A stretch of 47,406 nucleotides of DNA, taken from positions 1-47,406 of the forward strand of contig DUOK01000175.1 in assembly GCA_012838865.1 (NCBI GenBank). The letters run 5' to 3'. Below the pieces are notes generated by a model. That model was not told the DNA's origin. It saw only the letters and a list, made by a program, of their open reading frames with translations, and ran no database searches. This stretch comes from Bacteroidales bacterium. Its GTDB lineage: Bacteria > Bacteroidota > Bacteroidia > Bacteroidales > Marinilabiliaceae. Of the stretch, positions 19,414 through 31,419 are shown in pieces. The number at the start of each line of letters is the position of its first letter. The stretch's first letter is position 1. The position numbers and the translations under genes were made by a program.

Positions 19414-19442
19414 TTTGATTAATGACAAAATTCATACATTTG
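19414..19442 (+). promoter_or_regulatory. Candidate promoter of the ilv attenuator transcript (TTTG N17 TACATTTG)
   Basis: TTTG 19414-19417 and TAnnTTTG (TACATTTG) 19435-19442, with the leader ATG 25 nt downstream. Confidence 0.7.
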
Positions 19443-19466
19443 CATAGTCAACAACAAAATCAGGAC

Positions 19467-19526
19467 ATGAAACTTTTTGCATCTCTCCTTCTCGTAGTCA
19501 TTATTGTTCTCGTGGTGAACCATTAG
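19467..19526 (+). CDS. Branched-chain amino-acid leader (attenuator) peptide MKLFASLLLVVIIVLVVNH
   Basis: ATG AAA CTT TTT GCA TCT CTC CTT CTC GTA GTC ATT ATT GTT CTC GTG GTG AAC CAT TAG; 12 of 19 residues are Leu/Val/Ile; upstream of ilvD and followed by a terminator. Confidence 0.88.
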   Translation: MKLFASLLLVVIIVLVVNH

Positions 19527-19527
19527 A

Positions 19528-19586
19528 GAAGTGAGACAGGTATGTAAAAAGTTAAGCGACATAAAACTTAAGACCCCTCTCACTTC
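19528..19586 (+). promoter_or_regulatory. Candidate antiterminator pairing (segments 2:3)
   Basis: GAAGTGAGA (19528-19536) is the exact reverse complement of TCTCACTTC (19578-19586), which overlaps the terminator 5' arm. Confidence 0.8.
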
Positions 19587-19606
19587 AACGGTGAGAGGGG
19601 TTTTTG
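19573..19606 (+). terminator. Attenuator terminator (segments 3:4)
   Basis: CCCCTCTCAC (19574-19583) / GTGAGAGGGG (19591-19600), 10-bp perfect stem, loop TTCAACG, TTTTT tract. Confidence 0.9.
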
Positions 19607-19647
19607 CTTAAACAGGTTTTGCAACACTAATTACTATATAAAGAGTC

Positions 19648-21489
19648 ATGAAGATTCCATTGCGCAGCAACACCACCACCCAGGGCCGAAGAATGGCCGG
19701 CGCCCGCAGCTTATGGCGGGCCAACGGAATGAAGGACGAACAAATGGGCCGCCCCCTGATTGCGGTGGTCAATTCCTTCACCCAGTTTGTACCCGGTCAC
19801 GCCCACCTGCACCAAATCGGTCAGGACGTTAAAAAACTGATCGAAAAGCAGGGCTGCTTTGCTGCGGAATTCAACACCATCGCCATCGACGACGGCATCG
19901 CTATGGGACACGACGGCATGCTCTACTCCCTGCCCTCGCGGGATTTGATCGCCGACAGCGTAGAATACATGGTCAATGCCCACAAGGCCGACGCCATGAT
20001 ATGCATCAGCAACTGCGACAAAATCACGCCCGGTATGCTTATGGCCGCCATGCGCCTGAACATCCCCGTGGTTTTTGTATCGGGTGGACCTATGGAAGCG
20101 GGCAAGCACGACGGCAAGGCCCTGGATTTGGTCGACTCTATGGTGATGGCCGCCGACGACAGCGTCAGCGACGCCGACGTACTGGCCGTGGAACAGAATG
20201 CCTGTCCCACCTGCGGCTCCTGCTCGGGCATGTTTACCGCCAACTCCATGAACTGCCTCAACGAGGCTTTGGGACTGGCCCTGCCGGGCAACGGCTCCGT
20301 TGTAGCCACCCACGTGAACCGTCGACAACTCTTCGAAGACGCCGCCAACCAGATTGTAAAACTGGCCTACCGCTATTACCAGGACGGCGATGTTTCTGTA
20401 TTGCCCCGCAACATCGCCACCAAGGCGGCCTTTATGAACGCCATGACCCTCGACATTGCCATGGGCGGAAGCACCAATACCGTGCTGCACCTCCTGGCCA
20501 TTGCCCACGAAGCGCAGGTCGATTTTAGCATGGACGACATCGACCAGCTTTCCCGCAAGACGCCGGTTTTGTGCAAAGTGGCCCCCAACAGCAACTACCA
20601 CATGGAGGACGTCAACCGGGCCGGAGGCATCCTGGGCATATTGGCAGAATTGGAGCGGGGACAACTCATCGACAGCAGTGTGGGCCGCATCGATTATCCC
20701 AGTCTGGCCGAAGCCATCCGCCATTACGACGTAATGAGTAAGGACTGCCTGCCCCGCGCCAAAGACCTTTATCAAAGTGCCGCCGGTGGTTTCGTCAACC
20801 TGAAACTGGCCAGTCAGAAAGCCGCCTACAGCAGCCTGGATCTCGACCGCGAAAAAGGCTGCATCCGCAGCGTGGAGCACGCCTATTTTAAGGACGGGGG
20901 ACTGGCCGTACTCTTCGGCAACATTGCCCAGCAAGGCTGCATCGTTAAAACAGCAGGCGTAGATCCCTCCATCTTTAAGTTCAAAGGGACGGCCCGTGTG
21001 TACGAATCGCAGGACGACGCCAGCGAAGGCATCCTTTCCGGAGAAGTAAAGGCCGGAGAAGTCGTCTTCATCCGCTACGAAGGACCCAAAGGAGGACCGG
21101 GTATGCAAGAAATGCTTTACCCGACCTCCTACCTGAAGTCGCGCCAGCTGGGTGCCCTCTGTGCCCTGGTCACCGACGGCCGCTTTTCGGGCGGCACCTC
21201 CGGTCTTTCGATCGGTCACGTCTCGCCCGAGGCAGCAGCAGGCGGCAACATTGCCCTGATTCAAAACGGCGACCCGGTAGAAATCGACATCCCCGCCCGC
21301 AGCATCAACATCATGGTAGATGAATCCACGCTGACGGCCCGTCGCGAAAAAGAAAAGGCCAAAGGAGCCGCCGCCTTTAAACCAAAACAACGCGAGCGTG
21401 TTGTTTCTAAAGCCTTAAGAGCTTATGCCAGTATGGTGACCTCGGCCGACCGGGGCGCCGTCCGGATTTTACCCGGTGAAACAATGTAA
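19648..21489 (+). CDS. ilvD: Dihydroxy-acid dehydratase
   Basis: [77 protein letters not shown]. Confidence 0.98.
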
Positions 21490-21524: not shown

Positions 21525-23258
21525 ATGGAAACACAAACCCAAGCAAAAAGCCAGGAAAAGCCCGCCGGAGCCATCCGGATGACCGGCGCCGAGGCGGTAG
21601 TGCGATCGCTTCTGAATGAAGGGACCGAAATACTCTTCGGTTATCCCGGAGGAGCCATCATGCCCGTTTACGATGCGCTGTACTCCTTCCAGAAAGAACT
21701 GCACCATGTGTTGGCCCGACACGAGCAAGGCGCTGTGCATGCTGCCCAGGGTTACGCACGCGTCACTGGTCGGGTAGGTGTGGCCATAGTCACCTCCGGT
21801 CCCGGTGCAACCAATGCCGTTACCGGCATTGCCGATGCCATGATGGACTCTACCCCGCTGGTGGTCATCAGCGGACAGGTGGGTTCGGCCCTGCTGGGCT
21901 CCGATGCCTTCCAGGAGACCGATGTGGTAGGCGTTACCCAGCCCATCACCAAGTGGAATTTTCAGGTAAAAAAGGCCGAAGACATTCCCTATGCCATTGC
22001 CCGTGCCTTTTACATTGCCCGCAGCGGACGTCCCGGACCGGTACTCATCGACATCACCAAAGACGCCCAGTTTGCGAGCTTCGACTACCACTATGAGCCC
22101 GTACGCTTCATCCGCAGCTACAGGCCCACACCAAAAGTGGAGCCCGAACAGATTAAGGCGGCGGCGCGACTGATCAACTTTGCCAGGAAACCCCTGGCCT
22201 TGGTGGGCCAGGGCGTTATTCTGGGTAACGCCGAGCAGGAATTGCTCGACTTTCTCAAAAAGTCCGGCGTACCCGCCGCATGGACCCTCTTGGGCCTTTC
22301 GGCCATGCCCAGCGACCATCCGCAAAACGTAGGCATGCTGGGTATGCACGGCAACTACGGTCCCAACATCAAGACCAACGAAGCCGACCTGATCATAGCC
22401 ATCGGTATGCGCTTCGACGACCGGGTAACGGGCGATTTAAAAAACTACGCCACCAACGCCAAGGTGGTACATTTAGAAATTGACGAAGCCGAAATCAATA
22501 AAAACGTACACGCCGATGTTCCGGTACTGGGCGACGTGAAACAAACCCTGCCCCTGCTTACCGAGACCATCAGCCAGGGCGACCACAGTGCCTGGATGGA
22601 AGAGTTCAGGGCCTGCGACCGGATTGAGCACGAGCGCATCATTCGCGAAGAACTGGCCCCCTCCAAAAAAGGGATGACCATGGGCGAAGTCATTCACAAA
22701 GCCTCCAAGGCATTTAACGACGACGCCATTATGGTGACCGACGTAGGCCAGCACCAAATGATGGCCAGTCGCTATTTCCGCTTTAAGCAGACCCGCAGCG
22801 TGGTCACCTCAGGCGGTCTGGGCACCATGGGCTTTGGACTGCCCGCAGCCATGGGCGCCAAGCTGGGTGCGCCCCAGCGTCAGGTCTGTCTCTTTGTAGG
22901 CGACGGCGGTTTTCAAATGACCATTCAGGAACTGGGCACCATCTTCCAGTCCAAAATACCCGTTAAGATCGTACTGCTCAACAACAACTTTCTGGGCATG
23001 GTACGGCAGTGGCAGGAACTGTTTTTCGACAGTCGCTACGCCTCTACCGAACTGATCAACCCCGATTTCCAGACCGTCGCCAAGGGCTACCACATCGAAA
23101 CGGTAAAGGTGACCGAGCGCGAGGAGCTCGACCAGGCCATTGCCAAAATGGTGGCCCATGAGGGTGCCTACCTGCTCGAAGTCGTGGTAGAGAAAGAAGG
23201 CAACGTATTTCCGATGGTGCCGGCAGGCGCCTCGGTATCCGATATCCGCTTAGAGTAG
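21525..23258 (+). CDS. ilvB: Acetolactate synthase, large subunit
   Basis: EILFGYPGGAIMPVYDAL; ThDP motif GDGGFQMTIQELGTIFQSKIPVKIVLLNN. Confidence 0.98.
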   Translation: METQTQAKSQEKPAGAIRMTGAEAVVRSLLNEGTEILFGYPGGAIMPVYDALYSFQKELHHVLARHEQGAVHAAQGYARVTGRVGVAIVTSGPGATNAVTGIADAMMDSTPLVVISGQVGSALLGSDAFQETDVVGVTQPITKWNFQVKKAEDIPYAIARAFYIARSGRPGPVLIDITKDAQFASFDYHYEPVRFIRSYRPTPKVEPEQIKAAARLINFARKPLALVGQGVILGNAEQELLDFLKKSGVPAAWTLLGLSAMPSDHPQNVGMLGMHGNYGPNIKTNEADLIIAIGMRFDDRVTGDLKNYATNAKVVHLEIDEAEINKNVHADVPVLGDVKQTLPLLTETISQGDHSAWMEEFRACDRIEHERIIREELAPSKKGMTMGEVIHKASKAFNDDAIMVTDVGQHQMMASRYFRFKQTRSVVTSGGLGTMGFGLPAAMGAKLGAPQRQVCLFVGDGGFQMTIQELGTIFQSKIPVKIVLLNNNFLGMVRQWQELFFDSRYASTELINPDFQTVAKGYHIETVKVTEREELDQAIAKMVAHEGAYLLEVVVEKEGNVFPMVPAGASVSDIRLE

Positions 23259-23287
23259 TACCCCAAATATTAACCTCAGAAAAAGAA

Positions 23288-23833
23288 ATGATGCAACAGG
23301 AATTCACACTCAGCATATTTTCGGAGAACCACGTGGGTCTGCTCAACCAGATCACCACCGTGTTTACCCGACGCAACCTCAACATCGAGAGTCTGGTTAC
23401 CTCCGAATCGGCCATCGCCGGCATCCACAAATTTACCATTGTGGTATTCAGCAGCCGCGAGGAAATTGAAAAGGTAGCCCGGCAAATCGAGAAGCGCATC
23501 GACGTCATCAAAGCCTTTGTGCTCACTGAAGACGAGATCATTCATCAGGAAATTGCCCTCTACAAGGTGCCCACCCGCACCCTGCTCAACGGCAACGAGA
23601 TTGAAAAACTCGTGCGCCAGTACGGCGCCCGCATTTTGGAAATCACCGAAGAATATACCGTGATTGAAAAAACCGGACACCATAAAGAGACCCAGGAGCT
23701 TTTCGATAAAATGGACCAATACGGTGTGGTGCAGTTTACCCGTTCGGGACGCATTGCCGTAACCAAGGCCAAGGCCGAGCTGCTCGACAATTACCTGCGT
23801 AAGGCCGAACTCGACAAGCAGGAACTCAACTAA
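23288..23833 (+). CDS. ilvN: Acetolactate synthase, small (ACT-domain) subunit
   Basis: FTLSIFSENHVGLLNQITTVFTRRNLNIESLVTSES ACT domain, directly downstream of ilvB. Confidence 0.95.
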   Translation: MMQQEFTLSIFSENHVGLLNQITTVFTRRNLNIESLVTSESAIAGIHKFTIVVFSSREEIEKVARQIEKRIDVIKAFVLTEDEIIHQEIALYKVPTRTLLNGNEIEKLVRQYGARILEITEEYTVIEKTGHHKETQELFDKMDQYGVVQFTRSGRIAVTKAKAELLDNYLRKAELDKQELN

Positions 23834-23907
23834 AGCCGCTTACAATTGTTTACTTTTGACATCCAAGTTATTAACAAACCATATCAATACAATTAACAAA
23901 CACTATT

Positions 23908-24957
23908 ATGGCTAGAATCAATTTCGGTGGAACCGAAGAAAATGTAGTTACCAGAGAGGAATTCCCCTTGAAAAAGGCACAGGAAGTGCTCAAAGACGAA
24001 GTGATCGCAGTAATTGGTTACGGCGTTCAGGGACCCGGTCAGGCCCTCAACCTCAAAGACAATGGCTTCAATGTAATCATTGGCCAGCGTAAAGAGTCCA
24101 AGACCTGGGACAAGGCGGTAGCCGACGGCTGGGAACCCGGCAAAACCCTGTTTCCCATCGAAGAAGCCCTCGACAAGGGAACCATCATCCAGTACCTGCT
24201 GTCCGACGCCGGTCAGATCAGCGTATGGCCTACCGTTCAGAAATACCTGAAGCCCGGTAAAGCCCTGTACTTCTCTCACGGTTTTGGTATAACCTACAAG
24301 GAGCGCACCGGCATTGTTCCGCCCAAAGACGTAGATGTTATTTTGGTGGCCCCCAAAGGTTCGGGTACCAGTCTGCGTCGCATGTTCCTCGAAGGACGCG
24401 GCCTCAACTCCAGCTACGCCATCTTCCAGGACGCCACCGGCAAAGCCAAGGATCGTGTAGTAGCCTTAGGTATTGGTGTAGGCAGCGGTTACCTTTTCGA
24501 AACCACCTTCCAGAAGGAAGTGTACAGCGACCTGACCGGAGAGCGTGGGACCCTGATGGGCGCCATCCAGGGCATCTTTGCTGCCCAGTACGAAGTATTG
24601 CGTAAGAACGGCCACAGTCCCTCCGAAGCCTTCAACGAGACCGTTGAAGAGCTGACCCAGAGCCTGATGCCATTGGTGGCTGAGAACGGTATGGACTGGA
24701 TGTACGCCAACTGTTCCACCACCGCCCAGCGTGGTGCGCTCGACTGGTGGAAGAAATTCCGCGACGCCTCTTTGCCCGTATTCAGCGAACTCTACGACGA
24801 GGTAGCCAAAGGCAACGAAGCCCAGCGTTCCATCGACTCCAACAGTCAGTCGGACTACCGGGTAAAACTGGAAGCAGAACTCAAGGAGTTGCGTGAATCG
24901 GAAATGTGGCAAGCCGGCGCCGCCGTGCGCAAGCTGCGTCCCGAAAACGACAAATAA
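23908..24957 (+). CDS. ilvC: Ketol-acid reductoisomerase
   Basis: VIAVIGYGVQGPGQALNLKDNGFNVIIGQRK; ALYFSHGFGI; AILVAPKGSGTSLR-type region; C-terminal ILVC domain. Confidence 0.97.
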   Translation: MARINFGGTEENVVTREEFPLKKAQEVLKDEVIAVIGYGVQGPGQALNLKDNGFNVIIGQRKESKTWDKAVADGWEPGKTLFPIEEALDKGTIIQYLLSDAGQISVWPTVQKYLKPGKALYFSHGFGITYKERTGIVPPKDVDVILVAPKGSGTSLRRMFLEGRGLNSSYAIFQDATGKAKDRVVALGIGVGSGYLFETTFQKEVYSDLTGERGTLMGAIQGIFAAQYEVLRKNGHSPSEAFNETVEELTQSLMPLVAENGMDWMYANCSTTAQRGALDWWKKFRDASLPVFSELYDEVAKGNEAQRSIDSNSQSDYRVKLEAELKELRESEMWQAGAAVRKLRPENDK

Positions 24958-24972
24958 ATCAAGTATTTTAAA

Positions 24973-25010
24973 CCCGGGGCAACACCAGGGGTGTTGCCCC
25001 GGGCTTTTTT
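24973..25010 (+). terminator. Strong intrinsic terminator between ilvC and leuA
   Basis: CCCGGGGCAACAC / GTGTTGCCCCGGG, 13-bp perfect stem, loop CAGGG, followed by CTTTTTT. Confidence 0.9.
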
Positions 25011-25055: not shown

Positions 25056-26552
25056 ATGAGCAACAGAGTCTATATTTTCGACACCACATTACGGGATGGC
25101 GAACAAGTCCCCGGCTGCCAGTTGAACACCATTGAAAAAATTGAAGTGGCGCGTCAACTCGAGAAACTCGGGGTGGACATTATTGAAGCCGGCTTTCCGG
25201 TCTCCAGTCCCGGCGATTTCAACTCTGTGGTGGAAATCTCAAAAGCCCTTACCAACCCCACCATTTGTGCACTGACCCGTGCCGTAAAAAAAGACATTGA
25301 AGTGGCCGCCGACGCCTTGAAATTCGCCAAAAAAGGACGCATCCACACCGGCATCGGCACCTCGCCCTACCACATCTTCAACAAACTCAACTCCAATCCC
25401 GAAGCCATTATTGAGCGGGCTGTGGAAGCCGTTAAATACGCCAAAAAGTTTGTAGAAGACGTAGAGTTCTATGCCGAAGACGCCGGCCGCTCAGACAACG
25501 AATACCTGGCCCGCGTAATAGAGGCCGTCATCAAAGCAGGCGCCACCGTGGTCAACATTCCCGACACCACCGGCTACTGCCTGCCCTCCGAGTACGGCGA
25601 AAAAATCGCCTACCTGGTCAATAAGGTACCCAACATCGACAAAGCCATCATTGCCACCCACTGTCACAACGACCTGGGTATGGCCACCGCCAACACCGTT
25701 TCGGGCATCATCAACGGCGCCCGTCAGGTAGAGGTGACCATGAACGGCATTGGCGAGCGGGCCGGCAACACCTCCCTCGAAGAAGTGGTGATGACCCTGC
25801 GCGCCCACAAGGATCTGGACTTCGACACCAACATCGACAGCAAGCAGATCATGAAGACCAGCGGACTGGTATCCACGCTTATGCGCATGCCCATCCAGCC
25901 CAACAAGGCCATTGTGGGGCGCAACGCCTTTGCCCACTCCTCGGGCATTCACCAGGACGGGGTACTCAAAAACCGCGAAAACTACGAAATCATCGATCCG
26001 GTGGAAGTCGGCGTAAAAGAATCGTCGATTGTACTCACCGCCCGCAGCGGGCGTGCTGCCTTGAAGCACCGCCTGGGCGTGCTGGGCTACGATTACGAAC
26101 CCAGCGAACTCGACAACATATACAACCGCTTTTTGGACCTGGCCGACAAGAAAAAGGACATCACCGACGAAGATCTGGAAATCCTGGTCGGCCGCGAAAA
26201 GCAAGCCGGCAAAAAGCCCATCGAACTGGTATCGCTGCAGGTCATGTGTGGCAAGTCCACCATCCCCACCGCCACCGTTCAGGTCAGCTTCCACGGCGAC
26301 ATCTTTACCGAAACCGCCTCGGGCAACGGGCCCATCGACGCCGCCTTCACCGCTGTAAAAGCGCTGGTGAAGCGCCGGGTGCGCCTCGAAGAATTTTTGA
26401 TTCAGGCCATCACCCGCGGCAGCGACGACCTGGGCAAGGTACACGTACAGGTAGAGCACAAAGACCAGATTTACTACGGCTTTGCTGCCCACACCGACAT
26501 CGTGACCGCATCCGTGGAAGCCTTCCTCGATGCCCTGGGCAAAATACAATAA
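25056..26552 (+). CDS. leuA: 2-isopropylmalate synthase
   Basis: [56 protein letters not shown]; LeuA dimer regulatory domain. Confidence 0.96.
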
Positions 26553-26601
26553 GCACAAAGAGCAAACACATTGATACAGTAACCATTAAAATTAGAATAC
26601 C

Positions 26602-28002
26602 TTGGCTGGAAAAACACTTTTCGACAAAATCTGGGAGAAACATGTTGTCAACAACGTAGAAGGAGGACCCAGTGTATTGTACATCGACCGCCATTTGATT
26701 CACGAGGTAACCAGTCCTCAGGCGTTCGCAGGCTTAAAAGCAAGAGGGATTAAGGTCGCCCGGCCCGAAAAAACCGTGGCCACCCCCGACCACAACATCC
26801 CCACCATGGAACAGCACCTGCCCATCCACGATGAGCTGAGTCGCTTCCAGGTGAACAAACTCAAAGAAAACTGTGAAGCCAACGGCATAACCATGTACGG
26901 TTTAACGCATCCTTACAACGGCATTGTGCACGTAATAGGACCGGAATTGGGTCTTACCCGTCCGGGCATGACCATTGTGTGTGGCGACAGTCACACCTCT
27001 ACCCACGGGGCCTTCGGCAGCATTGCCTTTGGTATTGGCACCAGCGAAGTAGAGATGGTGCTGGCCACCCAGTGCCTCATGCAATCGCGTCCCAAAACCA
27101 TGCGCATCAACGTAGAAGGCGAGCTGCAAAAAGGCGTGACCTCCAAAGACATCGTCCTCTACATCATTTCTCAAATCTCCACCGGAGGCGCCACCGGCTA
27201 CTTCGTGGAATTTGCCGGATCGACCATTCGTAAGCTCTCCATGGAGGCCCGCATGACCATCTGCAACATGAGTATTGAGATGGGTGCCCGCGGCGGCATG
27301 ATTGCCCCCGACGAAACCACCATTGAGTACGTTAAAGGCCGCGAATTTGCCCCCAAGGGCGCCGAGTGGGACAAGGCGGTAGCCGAATGGCGCCAGCTGC
27401 CCAGCGACCCCGATGCCGTATTCGACAAAGAGTTGACCTTTAAGGCCGAAGACATTGAGCCGATGATTACCTACGGCACCAATCCCGGTATGGGCATCGG
27501 CATCAGCGCCCACATTCCCAAGGTTGAGGACATCGAGAAAGCTTCACAAAACAGCTTTAAAAAGTCGCTCCAGTACATGGGCTACCAACCCGATGAGCCC
27601 ATGATAGGCAAAAAAGTGGACTACGTATTTGTCGGCAGCTGTACCAACGGGCGCATCGAAGACCTGCGCGCCTTCGCCGCCTTTGTAAAAGGCAAAAAGA
27701 AGGCCGACAACGTGACCGCCTGGATCGTTCCCGGCAGTAAGCAGGTCGAGAAGCAAGCCATTGAAGAAGGACTGCGCGACATCCTCGAGGAAGCAGGTTT
27801 TTACCTGCGTCAGCCCGGCTGTTCGGCCTGTCTGGCCATGAACGACGACAAAATTCCGGAAGGTCAGTACGCCGTAAGTACCTCCAACCGGAACTTCGAA
27901 GGCCGTCAGGGACCCGGTGCCCGCACCATGCTGGCCAGTCCCCTTACCGCCGCAGCCACCGCCATCAACGGCGTCATCACCGACCCGCGGACCATGCTGT
28001 AA
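26602..28002 (+). CDS. leuC: 3-isopropylmalate dehydratase large subunit (TTG start)
   Basis: [68 protein letters not shown]. Frame opens with TTG. Confidence 0.96.
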
Positions 28003-28103
28003 ATCGTTGAAAAACAAGAATCATTAACACCTGTCGTGCAGCCCCCACCGCTCCCCGAAAAGGAAGTGGTGAGGAGGCCCACCGGCACTTAAAAACAAAA
28101 ACA

Positions 28104-28697
28104 ATGCCCATAGATAAATTTGTCACCCTGGAATCGCCCGCCGTGCCGCTGCCCATCGAGAATGTGGACACCGACCAGATCATTCCGGCGCGCTTCTTAA
28201 AAGCCACCACCCGCGAAGGGTTTGGCGACAACCTGTTTTGCGACTGGCGTTACGACAAAAACGGCCAACCCAAAGCCGATTTTGTACTGAACGACCCCAC
28301 CTACAGCGGCCAGATTTTGGTAGCCGGAAAAAACTTCGGCAGCGGATCGAGCCGCGAGCACGCCGCCTGGGCCATTGGTGGCTACGGCTTTAAAGCCGTA
28401 GTGTCCAGCTTCTTTGCCGACATCTTCAAGAACAACGCCCTCAACAACGGCATCCTGCCCGTGCAGATTTCCGATGCCTTTTTGGCGCAGCTCTTCGAAG
28501 CCATCGAAAAAGACCCGAAAGTCAAAATCAAAATCGATCTCGAAAACCAAAGCATCTCGGTGCCCGCCACCGGCATTTCCGAGGACTTCGACATCAATCC
28601 CTACAAGAAAAAATGTCTGCTCAACGGATACGACGACATCGACTATCTGTTCAGCATCAAAGACGAGATCGCGGCCTGGGAAAAGGCTGCACAATAA
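28104..28697 (+). CDS. leuD: 3-isopropylmalate dehydratase small subunit
   Basis: [56 protein letters not shown]. Confidence 0.97.
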
Positions 28698-28709
28698 GCA
28701 CCTTCCAGC

Positions 28710-28751
28710 GGGGACCGCTTTTTCGGAGTCTCCTCCGAAAAAGCGGTCCCC
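28710..28751 (+). repeat. Perfect 19-bp inverted repeat (hairpin) in the leuD-leuA2 intergenic region
   Basis: GGGGACCGCTTTTTCGGAG (28710-28728) TCTC CTCCGAAAAAGCGGTCCCC (28733-28751); no T-tract follows. Confidence 0.95.
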
Positions 28752-28776
28752 TTAACCAACATCCAAAACCTTCAAA

Positions 28777-30327
28777 ATGCCAAGCATGAACCTTATCGAA
28801 GTAATGGATACCACCCTGCGCGACGGGGAACAAACCACCGGGGTATCATTCAGCGAAGCCGAAAAGCTGGCCATCGCCCGCCTCTTGCTCGACGAGCTGA
28901 AAGTCAACCGCCTCGAAGTGGCCTCGGCAAGGGTCTCGGAAGGGGAATTCAGAGCCGTTCAGCGCATCACCCAGTGGGCCGCCAAAAACAACTGTCTCGA
29001 CAAAATAGAAATCCTCGGTTTTGTCGACGGCGAGGTCTCCCTCAACTGGATAGAAGCCGCCGGTGGCAAGGTCCTGAACCTGCTGACCAAAGGCTCGCTC
29101 AAGCACGTACAAAGTCAGCTTCGAAAAACACCCGAACAGCACCTGGCCGACATCCAGGGCGTACTGGCCGAAGCCGAAAAACGCGGCATCACCGTCAACG
29201 TTTACCTCGAGGATTGGTCCAACGGCATGCTCAGCTCCCGCGACTACATCTTTTTTATGGTCGATGCCCTCAGCAAAACCAAAGTAAAACGCATCATGCT
29301 GCCCGACACCCTCGGCATTTTCAGTCCCGACCAGACCTGGGAAGCCTGTAAGGCCATGTGCGATCGTTACCCCGGGGTGCATTTCGATTTTCATGCCCAC
29401 AACGACTACGACTTTTCCGTGGCCAATGTGTACATGGCCCTCAAAGCCGGCGTACGCGGGGTACACACCACCGTCAACGGACTGGGCGAAAGAGCCGGCA
29501 ACGCCCCTTTGGCCAGTGTACTGGGCATGATGAACGACCATTTGAAAATCACCAACAGCCTCAACGAGGCCAAGCTCAACCAGGTCTCGCGCATGGTCGA
29601 ATCCTTCAGCGGCGTGCGCATCCCCGGCAACAAGCCCCTCACCGGCGAATACGTCTTTACCCAGTGCAGCGGCGTGCATGCCGACGGCGACAAAAAAGAC
29701 AACCTCTACTTCAACCAACTCATGCCCGAACGTTTCGGCCGCGTGCGGCGCTATGCTCTGGGCAAGACCTCCGGCAAGGCCAACATCCTCAAAAACCTCG
29801 AAGAACTGGGCATCGAACTGGGTCCAGAGGACATGAAAAAAGTGACTCAGCGCGTAATAGAGCTGGGCGACAAAAAAGAAAACGTATCGACCGAGGACCT
29901 GCCCTACATCATCAGCGATGTACTCAAAAACGGAGGAACCCGCGAAAACATCCGCCTGCTCAACTACAGCCTCAACCTGGTGCGTAAAATGAAACCCACC
30001 GCCAGCATCCGGCTGATGATACACAAAGACACCTATTTCGAGAGTGCCGTAGGCGACGGCCAGTACGACGCCTTTATGAAGGCCCTCTGGAAAATATACG
30101 AGCGCCTGGGCAAAGACCATCCCTTGCTGACCGACTACATGGTGAGCATTCCCCCCGGCGGTAAGACCGACGCCCTGGTGGAGACCGTCATCACCTGGGA
30201 TTTTAAAGGTCAGGAATTTAAGACACGGGGACTGGATCCCGACCAGACCGAAGCGGCCATCAAGGCCACCATTAAAATGCTCAACATCATCGAAAACGAC
30301 GACTTCAAATTCAAAGACCAGAAATAA
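28777..30327 (+). CDS. Second isopropylmalate/citramalate synthase-family enzyme (candidate (R)-citramalate synthase)
   Basis: [93 protein letters not shown]-terminal LeuA regulatory domain. Divergent from the adjacent leuA. Confidence 0.88.
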   Translation: MPSMNLIEVMDTTLRDGEQTTGVSFSEAEKLAIARLLLDELKVNRLEVASARVSEGEFRAVQRITQWAAKNNCLDKIEILGFVDGEVSLNWIEAAGGKVLNLLTKGSLKHVQSQLRKTPEQHLADIQGVLAEAEKRGITVNVYLEDWSNGMLSSRDYIFFMVDALSKTKVKRIMLPDTLGIFSPDQTWEACKAMCDRYPGVHFDFHAHNDYDFSVANVYMALKAGVRGVHTTVNGLGERAGNAPLASVLGMMNDHLKITNSLNEAKLNQVSRMVESFSGVRIPGNKPLTGEYVFTQCSGVHADGDKKDNLYFNQLMPERFGRVRRYALGKTSGKANILKNLEELGIELGPEDMKKVTQRVIELGDKKENVSTEDLPYIISDVLKNGGTRENIRLLNYSLNLVRKMKPTASIRLMIHKDTYFESAVGDGQYDAFMKALWKIYERLGKDHPLLTDYMVSIPPGGKTDALVETVITWDFKGQEFKTRGLDPDQTEAAIKATIKMLNIIENDDFKFKDQK

Positions 30328-30354
30328 AACACAATAACAAATAATTTTAGATAC

Positions 30355-31419
30355 ATGAAGCTCAACATTGCAGTGCTCGCCGGCGACGGCATAGGACCAG
30401 AAATCATAGCCCAGGCCATAAAAGTAGTCGACGCCGTATGCGCCAAAAAAGGCCACGAAGTCACTTATCAGGAAGCCCTTACCGGCGCCGCCGCCATCGA
30501 TGCCCTAGGCGATCCTTACCCCGACAGTACCCACCAGATTTGTCTCGCTGCCGACGCCGTACTCTTCGGCGCCATCGGTCACCCCAAATTCGACAACGAC
30601 CCCACCGCCAAAGTGCGGCCTGAGCAGGGACTGCTGCGCATGCGCAAGCAACTTGGTCTCTATGCCAACCTGCGTCCGGTAGAAACCTTCCCCTCGCTGC
30701 TGCACAAGTCGCCCCTGCGCAGAGACCTGGTTGAAGGCGCCGATTTTATGTGCATCCGTGAACTCACCGGCGGCATCTATTTTGGTGAAAAAGGCCGCAG
30801 CGAAGACGGCAACACCGCCTTCGACAACTGCGTGTACACCCGTCCCGAAATTGAGCGCATCCTTAAACTCGGCTTCGAGTACGCCATGAAGCGCAACAAA
30901 AAGCTCACCGTAGTCGACAAAGCCAACGTACTGGAGACCTCCCGCCTCTGGCGCCAAATTGCCCAGGAAATGGCCCCCGACTACCCCGAAGTGGACACCC
31001 AGTACATGTTCGTGGACAACGCCGCCATGCAGCTGATCCAATGGCCCAAAAACTTCGACGTAATGGTGACCGAGAACATGTTCGGCGACATCCTGACCGA
31101 CGAGGCCTCCGTCATCACCGGCTCACTGGGCCTGCTGCCCTCCGCCTCCATTGGACTGCATACCAGCGTATTTGAGCCCATCCACGGCTCCTATCCCCAG
31201 GCCGCCGGCAAAGACATCGCCAACCCCGTAGCCACCGTGCTTTCGGCCGCCCTGATGTTCGAGTACGCCTTCGACCTGAAAGAAGAAGCCGCCCTCATCC
31301 GCCAGGCCGTCAATGCCTCCCTGGAGCAGAACTTCGTAACCGAAGACATCGACAAGGCCCAGGCCAAAAAGACCTCCGAAGTGGGCGACTGGCTGGCCAA
31401 CTACATCAGCAAAGCCTGA
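30355..31419 (+). CDS. leuB: 3-isopropylmalate dehydrogenase
   Basis: [73 protein letters not shown]. Confidence 0.97.

Follow-up and report, generated by a model that had tools for sequence, protein, structure and literature searches.

In enterobacteria, the ilvGMEDA, ilvBN and leu attenuators each comprise a short open reading frame (ORF) with Leu, Val and Ile codons, an antiterminator and an intrinsic terminator, located before the branched-chain amino acid (BCAA) genes. Classical attenuation of this type requires coupled transcription and translation. The abstract of a comparative study, Vitreschak 2004, reportedly mentions some attenuators in Bacteroidetes/Chlorobi, and this study and Lopatovskaya 2010 are said to be the likeliest sources of earlier Bacteroidetes predictions.

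BCAA-codon upstream ORFs that control ilv operons, as the element described here is predicted to do, are reported for ilvBNC of Corynebacterium (PMC10272879, PMC11857589) and as a Leu-rich attenuator in S. aureus (PMC5794164); both systems differ from the present one in belonging to unrelated phyla and in their gene order. Within the Bacteroidetes, the Bacteroid-trp RNA (RF01692; Weinberg 2010, PMC2864571) is a trp-associated cis-regulatory element, and a transcript map of Bacteroides thetaiotaomicron contains small ORFs in 5' UTRs that are reminiscent of leader peptides (PMC7366714). For Flavobacterium psychrophilum, transcript data led to the proposal of leader-peptide attenuation before amino-acid operons (PMC9723704). 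These candidates share with the present locus the phylum, transcribed and structured 5' regions before amino-acid operons, and clues to leader peptides, whereas their lineage lies outside Bacteroidales and the elements named in the part of the report considered are those of pheA and hisG, not ilvD, and none is a Bacteroidales BCAA element.

The original prediction had held that a BCAA leader in a Bacteroidota ilv-leu cluster might be new. This stands insofar as no description of a Bacteroidales BCAA leader was found in the open literature, subscription papers being mostly outside the search, but not for the phylum at large, since amino-acid leader attenuators had been proposed in Bacteroidota before (RF01692, PMC9723704).

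The window analyzed here is a 47,406-nucleotide stretch of DNA from a 3.08 Mb genome (G000) of a Bacteroidales family that includes Saccharicrinis. The features of the locus are as follows.

19414–19442, + strand: predicted Bacteroidota-type promoter, with TTTG at 19414–19417 and the TAnnTTTG box TACATTTG at 19435–19442 (sequence and near-relative alignment; putative start site)
19467–19526, + strand: leader peptide ORF MKLFASLLLVVIIVLVVNH, with ATG at 19467 and TAG at 19524–19526 (sequence reading)
19485–19517, + strand: putative control codons, 11 consecutive Leu/Val/Ile codons, CTC CTT CTC GTA GTC ATT ATT GTT CTC GTG GTG (sequence)
19507–19530, + strand: segment 1:2 local hairpin, TTCTCGTGG / CCATTAGAGAA, last control codons and stop region (folding and near-relative alignment)
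19528–19541, + strand: segment 2, antiterminator 5' arm GAAGTGAGACAGGT, starting directly after the leader stop codon (complementarity and folding)
19570–19605, + strand: intrinsic terminator, segments 3:4, GTGAGAGGGGTTTTT, with a T-tract 3' of the stem (fold and terminator scan)
19573–19586, + strand: segment 3, ACCCCTCTCACTTC, partner of segment 2 in the antiterminator or of segment 4 in the terminator
19648–21489, + strand: ilvD, dihydroxy-acid dehydratase, the first gene under the predicted control (profile match over cut-off)
21525–24957, + strand: ilvB, ilvN and ilvC (profile matches over cut-off)
25056–31419, + strand: leuA, leuC, leuD, a LeuA/CimA-like gene and leuB (profile matches)

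A 19-codon ORF loaded with Leu, Val and Ile codons had been predicted at 19467–19526, following a TAnnTTTG-like element and preceding a terminator and ilvDBNC, and the sequence agrees in each of these respects. The translation MKLFASLLLVVIIVLVVNH contains 12 Leu/Val/Ile residues among its 19, 11 of them in an unbroken row; the box TACATTTG is located 24 nt 5' of the ATG; and the terminator at 19570–19605 is followed by ilvD, which starts 121 nt 3' of the leader stop. No Shine-Dalgarno sequence was seen at the 19467 start. An alternative in-frame ATG 45 nt further 5' would give MTKFIHLHSQQQNQD..., but 19467 was taken as the leader start because near relatives conserve only this ATG, without the upstream one, and because the TAnnTTTG box overlaps the longer extension.

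The models over cut-off in the cluster were TIGR00110, TIGR00118, TIGR00119, TIGR00465, TIGR00973, TIGR00170, TIGR00171 and TIGR00169. Since the cluster consists of ilvDBNC and leu genes, the codon run of the leader matches the products of the cluster, and the 11 Leu/Val/Ile codons before ilvDBNC-leu, which are conserved, are those expected of a leader-peptide attenuator.

The RNA downstream of the run was consistent with the same assignment. The fold of the whole leader had a z-score of -5.3, and four pairing segments are present. The codon run is followed by the stop with the antiterminator arm beside it, then by the shared arm and the terminator, which is the order of a classical attenuator. 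Segments 2 and 3 are 86% complementary, and the arms of the terminator hairpin (19570–19583 and 19591–19604), which T residues follow, are 93% complementary. When 19505–19590 was folded, with arm 4 absent, segment 2 was paired with segment 3, and when 19539–19610 was folded, with most of segment 2 omitted, the terminator formed. In these models, the 2:3 antiterminator and the 3:4 terminator of the window leader are mutually exclusive. Thus, both an antiterminator whose predicted pairing excludes the terminator and an intrinsic terminator lie between the leader ORF and the first gene, as in known leader-peptide attenuators. The antiterminator was absent from the original prediction; it was found here and is conserved. 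Judging from its position, segment 2 would be masked by a ribosome that has reached the leader stop. A search of the window's genome revealed no further copy of segment 2. The full-leader fold also contained a longer 1:2 alternative, in which 19471–19482 pairs with 19542–19553.

The leader therefore resembles the enterobacterial ilv and leu attenuators in its BCAA-codon ORF, antiterminator and intrinsic terminator before BCAA genes. Conversely, the Bacteroidales leader differs from them in its start without a Shine-Dalgarno sequence, its TAnnTTTG promoter, the placement of segment 2 right at the stop, and ilvD as the first gene.

BCAA-rich micro-ORFs had been expected in orthologous ilvD leaders, and they were observed before ilvD at 63 of the 66 loci of the window's family and at 24 of 27 further Bacteroidales loci outside it. 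One family contig (G015:C240) carries the same leader and terminator as DIYS01000082.1 (Saccharicrinis sp. UBA6048). When 91 Bacteroidales regions upstream of ilvD were surveyed, 76 contained an ORF that starts with ATG and carries 8 or more BCAA codons within 10 consecutive ones, and 65 of those had an intrinsic terminator at most 140 nt from the ORF stop; at a threshold of 9/10, the corresponding numbers were 65 and 54. The combination of BCAA ORF and terminator occurred in none of three matched control sets (the opposite strand, and the region 400–900 nt upstream on both strands). The named loci included 54 Bacteroidota ilvD regions, of which 34 had a BCAA ORF, 31 with a terminator, and leaders were seen in Bacteroides, Phocaeicola, Alistipes, Odoribacter, Tannerella and Paludibacter.

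These surveys bear on the possibility that a chance ORF precedes an ordinary terminator. Short hydrophobic ORFs arise easily in AT-rich DNA, and 7/10 BCAA codons were reached in 50 of 910 shuffles; however, neither a 9/10 ORF nor an ORF with a terminator was found in any of the 910, as against the 65 real regions at 9/10. For the 500 nt upstream of the window's ilvD, an ORF reached 8/10 BCAA codons or more in 7 of 5000 dinucleotide shuffles and 10/10, the value of the window's leader, in none. Conservation across Bacteroidales refutes a chance origin, to which we assign a negligible probability.

The leader was confined to part of the loci. No recognizable leader was seen at the Bacteroidales ilvD loci L145–L147, L156, L174 and L179 or at several Prevotella-group and other named ilvD loci, and a BCAA ORF was missing from all 20 ilvD loci from outside Bacteroidota (Desulfobulbales, spirochaetes and others). 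A phylum-wide search with the window's IlvD at an E-value of 1e-120 drew no additional genome from the sample, apparently owing to a different ilvD type in most of the phylum, and order and class were searched instead; the class-level ilvD loci mostly lacked a leader of this sequence. Outside Bacteroidales, in two other lineages of the class, unrelated BCAA-rich ORFs with terminators precede a different ilvD at L193 and L202, which are genus-mates of one family, and at L201 and L203, which are genus-mates of another; this suggests that such leaders arose earlier or more than once.

For the peptide itself, the sequence drifts among family leaders (MTLFTSLLLVVIIILVVNH, MNLFLSLILVNIIILVGQPGRSENGV, MKFNLSLILNIIIILVVIIRT, MYNVRNIRVVVLLLNLIVLVVQG and others), and the run remains Leu/Ile/Val. 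The very hydrophobic product of 19 residues, encoded between a promoter box and a terminator of its own, could be read as a small functional membrane peptide, in which case the terminator would merely end its transcript. Such a peptide should tolerate Phe, Met, Ala and Gly, but the 10-residue runs of 87 leaders contain 774 Leu/Ile/Val residues and only 14 Phe/Met/Ala/Trp/Cys/Gly. In addition, the BCAA run, the antiterminator and the location ahead of ilvD are maintained in spite of drifting sequence and variable length. A membrane-peptide function is thus very unlikely. The leader pN/pS of 0.40 among 8 near relatives is supportive to a moderate degree only and is blurred by the RNA pairing constraints.

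The promoter element is conserved with the leader. Of 87 leaders, 81 have a TAnnTTTG box in the 90 nt that precede their ATG, compared with an expected 0.05 per 90 nt of upstream background, and 2 have one in the interval from the leader stop to ilvD; transcripts that reach ilvD should therefore traverse the leader. A sigma-70 scan was set aside as uninformative for Bacteroidota.

The relation among the three RNA arms is also conserved across Bacteroidales, with matched changes. Terminator regions had z-scores below -1.5 against shuffles in all 78 leaders, and antiterminator regions had a mean z of -2.8, with 61 of 78 below -1.5. For the 1:2 region, the mean z was -1.0, with 26 of 78 leaders below -1.5, and the hairpin, which is present in the window and its near relatives, is weak across the order. 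Segment 3 GCCTTTCTC is accompanied by GAGAAAGGT and GAGAAAGGC; at L160 all three arms have changed in a matched manner (AAGAATGGT / GCCATTCTT / AGAATGGC, GCCATTCTT being segment 3), as have two at L175 (GGGAAAGGT / GCCTTTCCC, the latter being segment 3). In 21 of 25 representatives, mostly of different families, a leader's own 2:3 pairing exceeded the mean cross-species pairing. Across leaders, the median position at which segment 2 starts is 2 nt before the stop codon ends. Some species have longer leader ORFs (e.g., L012–L019), in which the stop lies about 20 nt further 3', segment 2 is translated as GRSENGV and the RNA core is unchanged; the exact masking geometry therefore varies.

The conserved arms also bear on whether the leader works through translation or Rho, by coupling or reinitiation at ilvD, instead of through intrinsic termination. 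Leader ORFs may act through translation in other cases, and reinitiation, with a distance peak of 11–14 bp in Bacteroidetes, is discussed in PMC4833913. In the window's leader, however, the stop is 121 nt from ilvD; in most species a terminator lies between leader stop and ilvD, and this terminator has a conserved competing antiterminator arm. We regard a mode of action through translation or Rho as very improbable.

Leaders of the same type are present before other amino-acid genes of G000. A His-run leader, MLFIHHSNAHHHLLV, with a terminator precedes hisG (L148 / L212, G000:C90, minus strand), and a Trp-run leader, MQTIIRNNNWWWHTSVLIHGR, followed by the terminator hairpin AAGGCTTGTCGG...CCGACAAGCCTTTTTT, precedes trpE. 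The amino acid of the run changes with the pathway (his, trp, ilv) and thereby provides an internal specificity control. The hisG leader has the box TAGATTTG and the terminator AAGAAGGCTTACC-CTGT-GGTAAGCCTTTTT; the Trp-run leader is at L219 (G000:C206), about 230 nt 5' of a trpE-type match. RF01692 did not call this Trp-run leader but does so in some relatives, where its matches contain a WWW-run ORF, and Bacteroid-trp therefore resembles a leader attenuator of this type. It differs from the ilv element in its Trp codons and trp genes, and the ilv element is not matched by the RF01692 model. Comparison of the window with Rfam (leader families, T-box and RF01692) gave no match at the gathering score and chance-level matches only.

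The leader thus most probably attenuates transcription of the ilvDBNC(-leu) operon in a ribosome-mediated manner, with a probability of roughly 93% as judged from sequence. The ilv/leu leader-peptide interpretation of the original prediction gains support from the conserved BCAA ORFs, the terminator and the conserved antiterminator. From their arrangement, we infer the following course of transcription, translation, stalling and regulatory outcome. RNA polymerase would start near 19449, and a ribosome would initiate without a Shine-Dalgarno sequence at AUG 19467. Under a shortage of charged Leu-, Val- or Ile-tRNA, the ribosome would stall on the run at 19485–19517 and leave segment 2 (19528–19541) free to pair with segment 3 (19573–19586), so that segment 4 would be unable to form the terminator and polymerase would go on into ilvD. 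With Leu, Val and Ile all in ample supply, the ribosome would reach the stop codon and cover segment 2, the 3:4 terminator would form, and transcription would end near 19605.

Within the gene cluster, a very strong intrinsic terminator (14 bp stem, CTTTTTT) lies between ilvC and leuA at 24973–25003. It is identical in G021 and was not detected at the equivalent position of G022; it may separate ilv from leu or provide a further point of control. By eye, no TAnnTTTG box was seen before leuA. A long inverted repeat, GGGGACCGCTTTTTCGGAG / CTCCGAAAAAGCGGTCCCC, is located at about 28700–28770, between leuD and the LeuA/CimA-like gene. For the latter, a second LeuA-family gene at 28777–30327, the best model was the Leptospira-type citramalate synthase (653 bits, under the cut-off of 950), which suggests a possible citramalate route to isoleucine. 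Elsewhere in the genome, a second ilvD gene (L211, G000:C174:577-2190), which scores like the ilvD type of the class's non-Bacteroidales members, is either a paralogue or a contaminant; its contig is 4.6 kb long and of similar GC. No convincing BCAA leader was found before the ilvA-like gene.

Overall, the mechanism would be classical, and its Bacteroidales BCAA version is strongly supported. We lean toward regarding these leaders as a previously undescribed, order-wide Bacteroidales family of BCAA attenuators, with the three-arm core GTGAGAAnGGT / GCCTTTCTCAC / GAGAAAGGC, in a phylum that initiates largely without Shine-Dalgarno sequences. Its practical yield comprises annotations missed by gene finders and a candidate Rfam family. 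The leader offers a possible mechanism by which BCAA genes would be controlled throughout Bacteroidales, among them gut Bacteroides, Phocaeicola and Alistipes, for which little was found on regulation of these genes, and makes transcription-translation coupling testable in such a phylum. If the assignment is true, Bacteroidota ribosomes would trail RNA polymerase closely enough for classical attenuation, within a general his/trp/ilv system.
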